Assembly (NCBI GenBank): GCA_017415145.1
Contig: JAFQJE010000007.1
Span: forward strand, 1-64,000
Direction of reading: 5' to 3'
DNA: 64,000 bases
DNA from: Clostridia bacterium
Lineage (GTDB): Bacteria; Bacillota; Clostridia; UBA1381; UBA9506
In this document: positions 13,644 to 19,152 of the stretch, in pieces
Layout of the letters: each line of letters opens with the position of its first letter
Numbering within the stretch: the first letter of the stretch is position 1
The notes under the pieces: generated by a model
Database searches by the model: none
Seen by the model: the letters and a program-made list of their open reading frames with translations, nothing else
What the model was told of the DNA's origin: nothing
Made by a program: the position numbers and the translations under genes

Positions 13644-16600
13644 TTACTGTGCGTTGTAGCCTGAGTAGTCGTTATCAAAGTCAGGTGAACATTCTACCGC
13701 GTCAGACCAGTATATGAGTCCTTTAGATGTTATAACGTAAGCAACTGCTGCATATTCGCCTGTTGTACCCTCGGGTATGCCTATTACGTCACCGTAGAAC
13801 GCATTTGTGGCTTCATCATTCTGCTTACTTACAACTGTTGCTGTGATATCATCTGTTCTGATGTACTTGATACCTGAATCTTTAACATCTTCTGCATCAA
13901 TGTCAGCATGGAACAAGAAACGCATCATACCATACTTTGTTTCATCGTCCATATAGTATCCTGCATCTGTTCCTGTGCCCCAGTTAACTAACTTTTTACC
14001 GAAATCATCCTGGTCGTATGTGTATGCACCTACTGTTGTAAATTCAGCACGCTGTGCATATTCTAATGTCTCAGAAAGTCCTAAAGAAAGCTTAACTGTG
14101 ATATTGGGATGTTTTTCTTTAATATCATCAGAGAAATATATACCGCAGGTGAAATCTTTTACTTCACGACAAATATCCACATATTTGAAATCAAAAGGTG
14201 TTGCACCTGAAAGCACAGGGTAAACCACGCCTTCTTCTACTGTTTCAATCATTCCGTCAACAGGAATAGCAATCCAGCCGAATTCTCCATAGTTACCTGC
14301 AAGATAACAGCCTGTTGTGTCAAGCACCCCGTCTGTTAATCCACCAAATTCAATAAAGAAGTCTGTTGTGTAATTACCGTAGTAATTTTCGGCAGCTTCT
14401 TCAGGTGTATCCTTTGCGATAAACTGCATAGCTACATCCAATTCCAAATCCTTATCAGTTGCACCGTTAGGGTAACAAATATAAGTATCAGCAGGGATTG
14501 TAACTGAGCCTAAGTTTCTAACTTCTGCGTTGGGTAATGTTTTGTCTTTCTGCACAGCATCAAGTACAGCCTGAGCAGCTTCGCTCAAGGTGTTGTTAGT
14601 GAATGTAGACTGAGGTACAGTGTCATCCTGGAATGCAAGGACATTGATCGTATTGTCCGAAATTGTAGCCGCTGCAACATTGTAAACCTTGAGTCTTACA
14701 TCACCGAAGTTGTTACCTGTCACAACAGGAGAACCGCTTACAACATTTACAGTTCTGCCGGAAAGAACAGTGTTATTTATTAACTGCTCTGTGCCACGTA
14801 ACATTATTACGTTTGCACCCGAAGGAACCTGGAAGGTGTTACCTTTTACAACGAGGCCATTCTGTGCAGTCTCGGAGTAGATTGCACCACCGTTATTATT
14901 GAAGGTACAGCCCTCAATAGTAACGTTTTCTGCGTGTACACCGGTAATAAGACCGTCACTGACGTGTATAGCAGCGCCGCCACTAATTCCACAGCCGCCG
15001 GTGAAGGTTACATTCTTGATAGTACCAGAGGTGATTCCGAGTCCGTTTACATTTGCTCCCATCACGAGGTTAAGATCGTAAATGTTGTAATCACCGTCGT
15101 AGAAAATGTGATTACCGTTGCTTGCGGACTCAACATCGTTGATGGTAAGAGTATGACCGTTACCGTCGATGGTAAGACCGTCCATATCAAGATTGATAAT
15201 GGTATTGTTGCCGATGGAAAGAGTTTCAGAAATCATTACCCACTTATCAACAGTTACATCTTTAAGAAGAGTAACAGTGCCTGCAGGAGCTGCTGCCTTG
15301 ATAGCTTCCTGAATATCGTTGTATTTTACATTGCCAACTTTTGCGGCATACTGTGTCACATCTGTAGCAGTGCCGTTAATTAAAACAGAGCCGCCGTCGT
15401 AGAACATAGAGCTGTTGTCTGCACTCAAAGCTTCTCCGTCATAGGTACATTCATTGAAAGCATGTGTATTGTCATTAACTCGTGTGGTGTCGAACTCATA
15501 ACCTTCATTAAATTCACAACCTGTGAATGTTGTAGGCTGATAAGGACGACAGTATGAATAACCACTACCTTCGCCGAACTCACAATTCTCAAATGTTACT
15601 GACTTATGAACATTTGAAAAACTGGTCCAGCCAAAAAGCTTTGTATCTGTGATTGTAACTGAGCATCCCTTACTGCCTGCGTCAGAGTTGAATGTGTAAA
15701 TTACATCTTCAAATACACAATTGTCAATTACTACGTTACCATTTGCACCGGGCATAAATATACCACGCATAGCACCTGCGATAGTAAGATTTTTAACAGT
15801 ACCGCCTTTCATAGCTATTGCAGTATCCCATGTAGTATTGGCATTATTGATAGTAAGCTTGTGGCCATTACCGTCAAGAATGTCGCCCGCATCTAAAACG
15901 ATACCAGTCTTACCATAACCGGAACTCTGAGTTGCATCTGCTGTGATGTCTGCTGTCATAATGATTTGAGCCTTATCCACATTAAGAGCCTCTAAAAGTG
16001 CATCGTATGTTGCAACTTCTGTGGCAGCTACTGTGGTAACTTCTTCGCCGTTCTTTACATATTTTTTATCGCCGCAGACAACAGTTGCACCGTCTGCCAG
16101 AAATTCTGTAACATCTCCGCCGAATACGCCGCCTGAAACAAATTCGCTAACAGGAGCGATATTGTTAAAGATACCTTTGTCGAAGCTACCGCTCTTGATT
16201 TCAGCTGAAATGCCTGAAATGTTTGCTGTGCTGCCGTAATAATGCCAGTCAGCAATACGAATATTGCTGCTGCTCTTGTTTGAGTCAAAAATACCGCCGT
16301 TTACAGTCAACGAGCCTAGGCATGCCTTGTCTTTGCTACCGTTCTGAACATCAACAGCACCCATTATAATACCGCTATTGATAACAAGGTCAGCCTTTTT
16401 TGTTTCACTTACGCAGAACATACGTATTGCGCTGTACTCTGCGCAGTAAATTGTGCCGCCTTTTACTGTAACCGATGTGTCACGTATGCCGGAATATGTA
16501 TCAACAGCGTGAGGATAACCATTACGAGCTACGGTTTCAGTACTGAGGTTTTCGATTGTACCGCTTTCAATCACAAGTACACCTCTGTTGTAGATGGTGT

Positions 16601-16946
16601 CTGAGATATATTCACCGCCGTTACCATTGTCGGTATAACTGATTTTACCGCTGCGATTTTTACTGCTGTCTTTGATTGTCAGGTTACCATCATTGAGAAT
16701 CATCTGATATCCTGCTGTCTGTGTCTTTGTCTGACTGATTGTGTAACCTGCCAGATCGATTGTCAATGTTGTATCTGCAGGTACTGTGTATGTATCTGCA
16801 AGTACTACATTTTCTGTTAATTTGATAACACTATTAACAGCTTCAGGTAATGATGTTGCTGTTCCTTCTGCTGTTGCTACAGTTGTCATTGAACCGACAA
16901 TCATAATTGCAGAAAGAATGATTGCTAAAATTTTCTTTGCTTTCAT
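13644..16946 (-). CDS. Large secreted beta-helix (pectate-lyase-like) surface protein
   Basis: This 1100-residue exported protein has a signal peptide at residues 1-26 (cleavage ATA/EG). Residues ~30-800 are repetitive short strands of the type VTVKGGTIYC, NLTIKDSSKN and VVIDNCVFEDV, typical of right-handed parallel beta-helix adhesins or polysaccharide-binding proteins. The C-terminal ~280 residues are non-repetitive, with several YTxDQDDFG-like acidic patches. No LPXTG, SLH or other anchor was found, so attachment is unexplained. The ATG at 16946 follows GGAAGGAG. It lies 63 bp downstream of the TetR gene and 15 bp upstream of the small peptide gene. Confidence 0.82.
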   Translation of the reverse strand: MKAKKILAIILSAIMIVGSMTTVATAEGTATSLPEAVNSVIKLTENVVLADTYTVPADTTLTIDLAGYTISQTKTQTAGYQMILNDGNLTIKDSSKNRSGKISYTDNGNGGEYISDTIYNRGVLVIESGTIENLSTETVARNGYPHAVDTYSGIRDTSVTVKGGTIYCAEYSAIRMFCVSETKKADLVINSGIIMGAVDVQNGSKDKACLGSLTVNGGIFDSNKSSSNIRIADWHYYGSTANISGISAEIKSGSFDKGIFNNIAPVSEFVSGGVFGGDVTEFLADGATVVCGDKKYVKNGEEVTTVAATEVATYDALLEALNVDKAQIIMTADITADATQSSGYGKTGIVLDAGDILDGNGHKLTINNANTTWDTAIAMKGGTVKNLTIAGAMRGIFMPGANGNVVIDNCVFEDVIYTFNSDAGSKGCSVTITDTKLFGWTSFSNVHKSVTFENCEFGEGSGYSYCRPYQPTTFTGCEFNEGYEFDTTRVNDNTHAFNECTYDGEALSADNSSMFYDGGSVLINGTATDVTQYAAKVGNVKYNDIQEAIKAAAPAGTVTLLKDVTVDKWVMISETLSIGNNTIINLDMDGLTIDGNGHTLTINDVESASNGNHIFYDGDYNIYDLNLVMGANVNGLGITSGTIKNVTFTGGCGISGGAAIHVSDGLITGVHAENVTIEGCTFNNNGGAIYSETAQNGLVVKGNTFQVPSGANVIMLRGTEQLINNTVLSGRTVNVVSGSPVVTGNNFGDVRLKVYNVAAATISDNTINVLAFQDDTVPQSTFTNNTLSEAAQAVLDAVQKDKTLPNAEVRNLGSVTIPADTYICYPNGATDKDLELDVAMQFIAKDTPEEAAENYYGNYTTDFFIEFGGLTDGVLDTTGCYLAGNYGEFGWIAIPVDGMIETVEEGVVYPVLSGATPFDFKYVDICREVKDFTCGIYFSDDIKEKHPNITVKLSLGLSETLEYAQRAEFTTVGAYTYDQDDFGKKLVNWGTGTDAGYYMDDETKYGMMRFLFHADIDAEDVKDSGIKYIRTDDITATVVSKQNDEATNAFYGDVIGIPEGTTGEYAAVAYVITSKGLIYWSDAVECSPDFDNDYSGYNAQ

Positions 16947-17009: not shown

Positions 17010-17570
17010 TTAACTTTTGCTATCGATTTTTGACAGCAATATTTTATATATATATTCAAGTTGGGACTTGGAAAATGCATAGTCATCCCATACTACATAA
17101 TCTAAAATTGTGGCAATAAACATAAACACAAGGGGGCGAATCTCTTCAAAGGGTGCTCCTATACTCTTTGACAAGAGGTTGATATATTCTGCATATGTAT
17201 TATTCAAAGGCTCTGCGTTTTTTCTTATTCTGTCGCCAAATGTAGGGCTTGTTGCCGCCTGATAAACAAGTCTTAGAGACCGCTGTTCTATCTTTACAGC
17301 CTCCATAACACGTGAAATAAAATGTTCAAAATTGTTTATTTGTTCAGACGCTTCTGTGAAAATTCTAGCAGAAGATTTCATAAGTCCGAATTTTACGGAA
17401 TTTATAATAAAATCCTCTTTGTCCTCAAACCAGTAATAAATACTTCCCAAAGACATTCCGGTTTCCTTTGCCAAATCTCTAATAGACGTATTTTCAAGTC
17501 CATGGACCATTAAATACCTAAACGATATTTCCAATATTTCGTCAATGGATTTTTCTGTACGTTCTCGCAT
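17010..17570 (-). CDS. TetR family transcriptional regulator
   Basis: This 186-residue repressor has an N-terminal helix-turn-helix (TSIRDLAKETGMSLGSIYYWFEDKEDF, residues ~24-48) and an alpha-helical ligand-binding C-terminus with no assigned ligand. The ATG at 17570 follows AGAGG; a longer in-frame start at 17666 would run through the operator. Two palindromic operator-like sites lie directly upstream, so self-repression is likely. It is encoded between the small membrane protein and the beta-helix gene, and probably controls this locus. Confidence 0.88.
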   Translation of the reverse strand: MRERTEKSIDEILEISFRYLMVHGLENTSIRDLAKETGMSLGSIYYWFEDKEDFIINSVKFGLMKSSARIFTEASEQINNFEHFISRVMEAVKIEQRSLRLVYQAATSPTFGDRIRKNAEPLNNTYAEYINLLSKSIGAPFEEIRPLVFMFIATILDYVVWDDYAFSKSQLEYIYKILLSKIDSKS

Positions 17571-17586
17571 AAATAACCTCTTTTCT

Positions 17587-17621
17587 AAAACAATTGTTTT
17601 ATTTTTTAGAACAGTTGTTTT
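17587..17621 (-). promoter_or_regulatory. Tandem operator-like palindromes before the TetR gene
   Basis: AAAACAATTGTTTT (17587-17600) is a perfect 14-bp palindrome. AGAACAGTTGTTTT (17608-17621) is a near copy 21 bp away, two helical turns. They lie 17-50 bp before the TetR start. Confidence 0.65.
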
Positions 17622-17639
17622 AAATTCTATAAAAAAGAA

Positions 17640-17713: not shown

Positions 17714-17968
17714 TTAGTCTAAGTAGTCACGTTTTAAGCGTTTTTTTCGCATTTTGCGAAATAGCGGCCCAAATATAGGAATAATCTCTAACTTCATGTA
17801 TCGATATTTTCGCTTGTAATATCTTCGTTTCTTTTCGTTATCGGTATGCTTTATTTTTGCCTTTACAGTTTTCCGATTATCAAAAAAAGGCGTAAGCACA
17901 TCTACCCAATAGCACGCAATGTACATAATTACAAATATTGCTATAGATAGTATGCCTAAACCTGTCAT
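17714..17968 (-). CDS. Small single-span membrane protein of unknown function
   Basis: This 84-residue protein has one N-terminal hydrophobic helix (LGILSIAIFVIMYIACYWV) and a highly basic cytoplasmic tail rich in KRRYYKRKYRY and RKMRKKRLKR. ATG at 17968 follows AGAAGG; a GTG at 17989 is the alternative. It is the first gene leftward of the invertible promoter segment. It would receive transcription directly if that segment flipped. It is not recognised as a known family. Confidence 0.55.
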   Translation of the reverse strand: MTGLGILSIAIFVIMYIACYWVDVLTPFFDNRKTVKAKIKHTDNEKKRRYYKRKYRYMKLEIIPIFGPLFRKMRKKRLKRDYLD

Positions 17969-17996
17969 TGTATTCGCCTTCTTTGCCACGTGATAT

Positions 17997-18290
17997 TACA
18001 TAATCGAAATTATGTAGTTAAAAAGAAGACTAAAATATTAAATTGTGCCTTTTTTTAAGGGTTAAGGGTGAGCATTCGAGAGAGTTTTCAAAAAAGGGCA
18101 TGAGTTTAAGACCAATGCGTTGTTGCTTTTTATGCATTAGTCTATTTTGCCATGCCATTTTATACTGCAAAATGACTAAAATTATATTTTTAGATAAAAA
18201 ACCTTGACATTTATCGGGGATGGATGTTATAATAACGCCGTACTTTATATGTACTATATTCAAAAATCACTACATAATTTCGATTATGTA
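17997..18290. repeat. Invertible promoter segment flanked by 22-bp perfect inverted repeats
   Basis: The left repeat 17997-18018 and right repeat 18269-18290 are exact reverse complements over 22 bp and bracket 250 bp. Each repeat is itself a dyad (TACATAAT, a four-base core CGAA or TTCG, then ATTATGTA), as expected for a tyrosine-recombinase site with an asymmetric core. The inner segment carries one clear promoter (18204-18233) and an inverted repeat 18138-18150 / 18167-18178. A tyrosine recombinase gene starts 22 bp beyond the right repeat. There is no gene in 17990-18312. Confidence 0.82.
18204..18233 (+). promoter_or_regulatory. Promoter inside the invertible segment
   Basis: TTGACA (18204-18209), an 18-bp spacer and TATAAT (18228-18233) are both perfect hexamers. 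In the sequenced orientation it points right, against the recombinase gene; inverted, it would point left into the gene at 17968. Confidence 0.8.
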
Positions 18291-18298
18291 GTTTTTTT
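18269..18298 (+). terminator. Terminator formed by the right inverted repeat
   Basis: ACTACATAAT and ATTATGTAGT form a 10-bp stem closed by a TTCG loop, then a run of seven T lies just outside the invertible segment. It should stop the segment's own promoter in the present orientation. The left repeat lacks a T-run on its outer side. Confidence 0.72.
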
Positions 18299-18312
18299 GT
18301 TTTCCGATTTAA

Positions 18313-19152
18313 TCAACAGCGCAAAAGACCCAACATTTGAATTTTTTTACGATGTATCTCCCCTGTTTCCATCGTGTAAATTCTGGTGGTGTTTACGCTT
18401 GAATGTCCCAAGATGTCAGCAAGTCTCACAATGTCTTTTTGTATTGAGTAAAAGGTTCTTGCAAACAGATGGCGAAGATTATGCGGAAAAACCTTTTCTT
18501 TTGGTACCTGTGCGACTTCGCACAGTTTTTTCATATCTGACCAGATATTTGACCTATTTAATGGACGGCCTGATTTTGTCACAAATACAGGTCCCTGTTT
18601 AATATTTCGTGACGCAGCATATTTTAAAAGTGTTTTGCATAGTGCTTTAGGTAAAAACACACGTCGTACTTTTCCCTTTGAATGGATTTGCGCCGTTTCA
18701 CTTTCCAGTGCTTCTACTGTTATACCGTGAAGCTCTGATACTCGTATACCGGTAGAGCATATCGTCTGCATTACAAGATTTAATCTTATGTTTCCCTTTT
18801 GGTTTGCTGCAGCAAGAAGTCTTGAATATTCCTTCTTTGTCAACTCTTTTTCCGTTCTTATAAAGAGTTGTTTTTGCACTTTAACAGTCTTAATGCACAA
18901 AGATTTCATCTGCAAAAAATCAAAAAAAGCATTTAAAGATGATATGGCGGCATTTGCACTTGCAATGACATAGTTTTTCTTAAGATACTCCTTATACTCA
19001 AGAACATTGGATTTTGTCAGTGTCTTGCCATTGAGCCACACAGCAAACATCCGTACATCCCGTATATACTTCTGAACTGTTGCGGCTGCTTTTTCGTTAA
19101 TTTGCAAAAATTCACGAAATTCTAAGATTTTTTCGTTTGTGATCTTCATCAT
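18313..19152 (-). CDS. Tyrosine recombinase (XerC/D-like), probable invertase
   Basis: This 279-residue site-specific recombinase has an N-terminal SAM-like core-binding domain (~1-90) and a catalytic domain. All catalytic residues are visible: Arg137 in STGIRVSE, Lys near 159-161, His224 and Arg227 in HNLRHLF, His250 in LGHSS, and the nucleophile Tyr259. The start ATG follows AAAGGAG. It is a single gene adjacent to 22-bp inverted repeats, which fits a dedicated invertase better than the housekeeping XerC/D. The right repeat also forms the end of its transcript. Confidence 0.87.
   Translation of the reverse strand: MMKITNEKILEFREFLQINEKAAATVQKYIRDVRMFAVWLNGKTLTKSNVLEYKEYLKKNYVIASANAAISSLNAFFDFLQMKSLCIKTVKVQKQLFIRTEKELTKKEYSRLLAAANQKGNIRLNLVMQTICSTGIRVSELHGITVEALESETAQIHSKGKVRRVFLPKALCKTLLKYAASRNIKQGPVFVTKSGRPLNRSNIWSDMKKLCEVAQVPKEKVFPHNLRHLFARTFYSIQKDIVRLADILGHSSVNTTRIYTMETGEIHRKKIQMLGLLRC

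Follow-up and report, generated by a model that had tools for sequence, protein, structure and literature searches.

A recombination site at one end of an invertible promoter segment, in a gut-type Clostridia bacterium, probably serves also as an insulator of the OFF state. Paired with a U-tract immediately beyond the segment, this site would stop the switch's own transcript and so keep antisense RNA out of the recombinase gene. Judging from the sequence and its relatives, we give this reading a probability of about two in three. The window, i.e. the whole stretch of 64,000 nucleotides that was analysed, presents the switch as follows:

17997 to 18290, no strand: invertible segment, OFF at present according to its inverted repeats and promoter direction; homologous segments occur in both orientations
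17997 to 18018, minus strand: distal (left) recombination site, lacking an outward T-run; its RNA forms a stem of only 8 bp
18204 to 18233, plus strand: promoter TTGACA-N18-TATAAT, its -10 box preceded by TG, aimed at the right site
18269 to 18292, plus strand: proximal (right) recombination site, the palindrome ACTACATAAT-TTCG-ATTATGTAGT; supplies the hairpin of the putative terminator
18292 to 18303, plus strand: U-tract TTTTTTT-G-TTTT, outside the segment and immediately after the stem
18313 to 19152, minus strand: tyrosine recombinase of 279 aa, XerC/D-like, presumed invertase (Pfam PF00589, E 1.4e-26)

The perfect inverted repeats (17997-18018 and 18269-18290) are 22 bp each with 250 nt between them, and no further copy was found in the 1.12-Mb genome, even at 3 mismatches. 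The 0.3-kb segment lies directly 3' of the recombinase gene, and its promoter matches the consensus at 12 of 12 positions, with an 18-nt spacer. The switch is thus an inverton, i.e. inverted repeats flanking a promoter with a tyrosine recombinase gene adjacent. This gene is convergent to the OFF promoter, which faces its 3' end. The nearest NCBIfam models of the protein are XerA, XerD and XerC, each below cut-off. It is neither XerD proper (126 bits, equivalog cut-off 329.6) nor XerC proper (117 against 335), and its structure matches are XerC-like, XerD and XerA proteins (1e-21 to 1e-16). This recombinase presumably acts on the two sites.

We propose that the XerC/D-like recombinase would invert the 0.3-kb segment together with the strong promoter it bears. 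In the OFF state, with the promoter directed at the recombinase gene from its 3' side, RNA synthesis would start at about 18240, the proximal site would fold into a hairpin and the transcript would stop within the U-tract, at about 18293-18303. The predicted OFF transcript (about 18240-18298) would be some 60 nt long. Termination at this point would spare the recombinase gene antisense RNA and convergent traffic. In the ON state, transcription from the reversed promoter would pass the far site, where there is no U-tract and, in the window, only a weak hairpin. The leader would then reach an RBS-like sequence and an 84-aa ORF, and perhaps the genes of a TetR regulator and of an 1100-aa protein.

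The original prediction described the right repeat as a hairpin followed, outside the segment, by seven T, and this is what we found. The 10-bp hairpin consists of ACTACATAAT (18269-18278), TTCG (18279-18282) and ATTATGTAGT (18283-18292). The seven T occupy positions 18292-18298 and the first of them doubles as the last base of the stem, which is followed by six T, a G and four more T. The RNA of 18262-18299 on the plus strand folds at -10.5 kcal/mol, a value reached by none of 200 shuffled sequences. The left repeat had been given the same stem and no T-run on its outward side. The T-run is indeed absent, but the stem differs: read outward, on the minus strand, the RNA forms 8 bp with a C-A mismatch at -5.1 kcal/mol, and 19 of 200 shuffles are as good.

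By the standards of the window, the putative terminator at the right site has a weak stem. With 2 G-C pairs and -8.4 kcal/mol, its stem is weaker than those of 17 clear gene-end terminators of the window (-11.4 to -23.4 kcal/mol). Its U-tract score of 5.2 exceeds the scores of all 17 (2.5-3.6). The site went unlisted in a terminator scan owing to its rule of at least 3 G-C pairs. The stem-loop stands directly before a U-tract, which is what characterises intrinsic terminators, and it falls short of the minimum of 3-4 G-C pairs in the usual prediction rule. Hence, we say that the site would work like an intrinsic terminator and do not place it firmly in that class. A search of Rfam over 16.5-20.5 kb returned one sub-threshold match to a microRNA family, which we judged to be due to chance. 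The hairpin and U-tract are placed and aimed as expected if they stop the segment's own promoter and keep antisense transcription out of the recombinase gene, as had been suggested; yet the stem is weak.

The site had also been thought to terminate in one orientation only. This does not hold. The U-tract is no part of the segment, and in-silico inversion rebuilds the right stem (-9.0 kcal/mol before, -9.8 after, with a U-score of 5.2 in both cases), so that the terminator is not in itself orientation-dependent. Seen in this way, the putative terminator is a fixed feature, and the direction of the promoter, which alone turns, decides whether a transcript meets it.

A search of genome contigs found 62 relatives, and 54 loci (including the window, with one duplicate dropped) were aligned on their site centres. 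No relative was found among viral contigs, where a phage-borne origin might have appeared. The usual order in relatives is the recombinase gene, immediately followed by the two palindromic sites, and then the target gene. The arms of the sites are conserved, with the consensus ACCACATAAT-NNNN-ATTATGTGGT. When the promoters of the 54 segments were scored, 44 segments were OFF (toward the recombinase), 7 ON (away from it) and 3 unclear. Two ON segments align with homologues in the reverse direction, namely L027 with L016, L019 and L067 (all OFF, and from the same MAG as L027) and L014 with L017, L021 and L022. On the strength of such alignments inversion is real in the family, both orientations being known from homologous segments rather than from the window locus itself. 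One assembled genome (SVQV01, isolate SIG626) carries the paralogous recombinase genes L016, L019, L027, L062 and L067, four of which have a switch before a different secreted protein, one of these being ON and three OFF.

The central four bases of the sites do not behave as a structural loop. In an arms-only search, they matched in inverted sense between the two sites of a locus in 52 of 53 loci. Agreement between different loci, the measure of chance, was 3.3%, with 27 different 4-mers, none of them palindromic. Centres matched within a locus and variable between loci fit the region of strand exchange, which also speaks for inversion, and leave UUCG without a special role. The closing pair at the right site is U-A, not C-G, and with a central 4-mer that varies so freely we rejected the idea of a stabilising UUCG tetraloop. 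The loop singled out by the original prediction is incidental.

The same asymmetry of T-runs had been expected at homologous switches, and the family displays it. We searched the 15 nt beyond the stem for TTTTT at all four flanks of each locus, which have similar hairpins. It was present at the proximal-outward flank in 36 of 54 loci, against 5 at the distal-outward, 4 at the proximal-inward and 1 at the distal-inward flank. The difference between the two outward flanks is significant (Fisher p = 6e-10, relatedness ignored) and the discordant loci split 31:0. Naturally, the 54 loci share descent and count for less than independent ones. The median U-score is 1.73 at the proximal-outward flank and 0.18-0.52 at the other three. 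The T-run persists in the diverged loci L061, L064 and L069, whose site arms differ, and its exact sequence varies between loci. It is missing in 15 of the 54 and is therefore not essential. Its losses are scattered over the tree (12 changes), in which the window is a long lone branch with one of the strongest T-runs. The view that one sequence serves as recombination site and as terminator-like hairpin with a U-tract thus draws support from both the sequence and the family.

Might the T-run be no more than functionless, A-rich 3' untranslated sequence that follows the recombinase stop codon and happens to adjoin a palindromic site? Intergenic DNA is A+T-rich here, and among 212 stop codons of other genes 20% also have AAAAA behind them. 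Yet, this is so for 65% of those of the recombinases, and the position of the run tracks that of the stem and not that of the stop. In loci where at least 14 nt separate stem and stop, T reaches 0.89-0.94 at stem positions +3 and +4, and A just 0.17-0.50 in the first 8 nt past the stop. Where the site overlaps the stop codon the T-run occurs in 0 of 7 loci, and at gaps of 5-30 nt in 34 of 38. The polarity is also kept. The 212 control stop codons led us to reject A-rich sequence after stops as the explanation, and absence of function seems distinctly improbable.

Another explanation takes the tract as a DNA element, either an A-tract bend or a site for an accessory protein, which would render the two sites non-equivalent in synapsis; termination would then be incidental. 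The tract does adjoin one site only, and the switch is clearly under strong constraints at the level of DNA, as its geometry is strict. The spacings of site centres fall on a ladder of 10.65 bp (Rayleigh R 0.70, against a maximum of 0.51 in 2000 jittered controls; relatedness ignored). The position of the promoter relative to the site is conserved across the family, and its distance to the site it faces is stepped at 25/35/46/58 (R 0.83; control maximum 0.61; relatedness ignored). Such stepped spacings would suit a short loop of DNA that obliges the two sites to point the same way, as though sites and promoter had to share one face of the helix. A further element shares this phase:

18109 to 18143, no strand: mid-segment dyad AGACCAATG-N17-CATTAGTCT, within a larger hairpin of about 18096-18157

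In the family, a dyad AGACCAATG-N13-18-CATTGGTCT is present in 32 of 54 loci, whereas each of 20 resampled sets of segments contained 0-2. Its spacing to either site follows the helical period (R 0.79 and 0.85). This definition replaced a looser dyad score of 13, dropped when shuffled sequences reached it in 18-28 loci. Strand polarity, however, is almost absolute: at the proximal-outward flank we counted 36 T-runs and 1 A-run, which is expected of an RNA U-tract and needless for a bend. Moreover, L008 lacks the T-run and has instead, at the same place and in the same direction, a separate G+C-rich, terminator-like CCGCC..GGCGG-TTTTT. A tract acting purely as DNA is therefore an unlikely account.

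One may also ask whether the hairpin is simply the 3' terminator of the recombinase gene, the T-run on the opposite strand being the mirror half of a bidirectional terminator. The site does come directly after the recombinase stop codon, and on the minus strand the window reads stem-GATTTTTG, with A's upstream that pair with the U-tract. But the best minus-strand hairpin directly before that U-tract is worth +0.7 kcal/mol, and across the family TTTTT lies inward of the proximal site in 4 of 54 loci against 36 of 54 outward, counts that leave a bidirectional terminator of the recombinase gene unsupported. There is also a better candidate for ending the recombinase mRNA in the OFF state, since the mid-segment hairpin reaches -22.9 kcal/mol on the minus strand, in recombinase sense, and is followed by CCCTTTTTT. 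We regard this third explanation as very improbable. The mid-segment hairpin may itself be a terminator that keeps recombinase mRNA off the target genes in OFF. The near-fixed loop length of the dyad and its phasing fit a protein-binding site just as well. Candidate roles of the dyad are hence an accessory-protein site, an enhancer or an insulating terminator.

Insulation of the OFF state by the right site, the reading that we prefer, may have consequences for flipping as well. Polymerase would be stopped at the proximal site in OFF and would cross the distal site in ON, so that transcription may set unequal flipping rates. One might speculate that sites, promoter and dyad, all on one helical face, form a phase-locked DNA machine in which transcription sets a flipping rate specific to each state and the terminator tunes switching too, the dyad being a recombination enhancer or a built-in insulator. 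This remains a conjecture that we consider rather doubtful.

Some relatives depart from the common layout. In L009, a segment of 0.38 kb holds two near-perfect promoters in opposite directions, and flipping may there swap transcription instead of turning it off. The distal ends of L029, L045 and L046 have two tandem site copies with the same centre (33 bp apart in L029), the outer copy being followed by a T-run, with a TetR gene downstream in L045 and L046. These tandem sites might let the segment take either of two lengths, or form a leader of the attenuator type. In L005 (distal centre 2596, recombinase-forward) and L033 (4113), both OFF, the stem of the far site is longer, closed by GCCTGC/GCAGGC, and a T-run lies a few nt past it. 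In-silico inversion weakens these far stems from -22.4 to -4.5 and from -20.6 to -12.1 kcal/mol, respectively. Since inversion breaks the far stem, the terminator in these two loci would be assembled and dismantled on flipping, in the manner of cwpV.

Terminators linked to inversion are known from other switches. In fimS of E. coli, the fimE gene has a detachable Rho-dependent terminator (Joyce & Dorman 2002; Hinde 2005; as related in PMC9993118 and PMC2784873). Going by these accounts, fimS resembles our switch in that a tyrosine recombinase inverts a promoter beside the recombinase gene and a terminator is tied to the switch. The fimS terminator, however, lies inside the segment, depends on Rho, acts on the recombinase mRNA and moves with inversion, whereas the putative one of the window is made up of a recombination site with an external U-tract and targets the switch's own promoter. 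The mid-segment hairpin with its minus-strand U-tract might act in the fimE way in OFF, though its U-tracts are only moderately enriched across the family. Within 18257-18299, in the present orientation only, the recombinase-sense minus strand reads the same hairpin and then GATTTTTG, a T-run that inversion turns into TAAAAAG. A weak terminator of recombinase mRNA at this place could be detachable like that of fimE.

In the cwpV switch of C. difficile, inverted by the recombinase RecV, an intrinsic terminator is predicted at an inverted-repeat junction and, as proposed for ours, works in OFF (PMC2784873). The cwpV promoter is external to the segment, and flipping creates or destroys the terminator in the path to the target gene (PMC2784873). 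In the window the promoter is inside and the proposed terminator permanent, which sets it apart from the cwpV type, and its stem has fewer than the four G-C pairs asked for in cwpV (PMC2784873). The flagellar switch of C. difficile likewise ties the OFF orientation to termination, which is Rho-dependent and takes place in the 5' leader, with the promoter outside the segment (PMC7446863). A 2025 survey reports inverton group 139 with tyrosine recombinase group 35 in Clostridia, with flipping seen in sequencing reads (PMC11892184). Its members also lie beside a tyrosine recombinase gene, and the site centres of the two examples printed in the available text, 231 and 241 bp apart, fall on the 10.65-bp ladder, a likeness of geometry. 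That text describes no repeat-associated terminator for the group and defers terminator roles to future work (PMC11892184). Our literature search on recombination sites doubling as terminators returned no paper matching all of its terms. In short, terminators linked to inversion have precedents, but the fimE, cwpV and flagellar switches are without a recombination site that, joined to an external U-tract, permanently stops an inward promoter.

Three genes lie downstream of the distal site:

17714 to 17968, minus strand: 84-aa ORF, first gene met in ON, with a hydrophobic N-terminus and a basic tail; orphan
17010 to 17570, minus strand: TetR-family regulator (Pfam PF00440), second gene downstream
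13644 to 16946, minus strand: 1100-aa protein with a signal-peptide-like start, third gene downstream

The 84-aa ORF is preceded by the RBS-like AAAGAAGG at 17978-17985 and had no homologue among 20 genomes of the same family. The genes of the TetR regulator and of the 1100-aa protein are on the same strand and perhaps on the same ON transcript. The 1100-aa protein, which matched nothing in Pfam or NCBIfam, is possibly the switched surface protein. Repeated near-palindromes, AAAACAATTGTTTT and GAACAGTTGTTTT, lie at 17580-17625, immediately upstream of the TetR gene, and are likely its autoregulatory operator.

Switches that invert a promoter must handle its wrong-way output, and here this output would enter the gene of the very enzyme that flips the segment. 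The sites, the promoter, the inversion of homologous segments and the conserved asymmetry of the U-tracts are established by sequence and comparison; that transcripts end at the site, how strongly they do so and what the cell gains from it are what we infer from them. The reuse of a recombination site as a terminator appears to be a recurrent solution in this family. It also comes with a simple rule, a T-run solely on the recombinase side, which predicts the OFF end and may allow ON and OFF calls from genome sequence. If the OFF state is well insulated, such a site would make a compact natural switch part.
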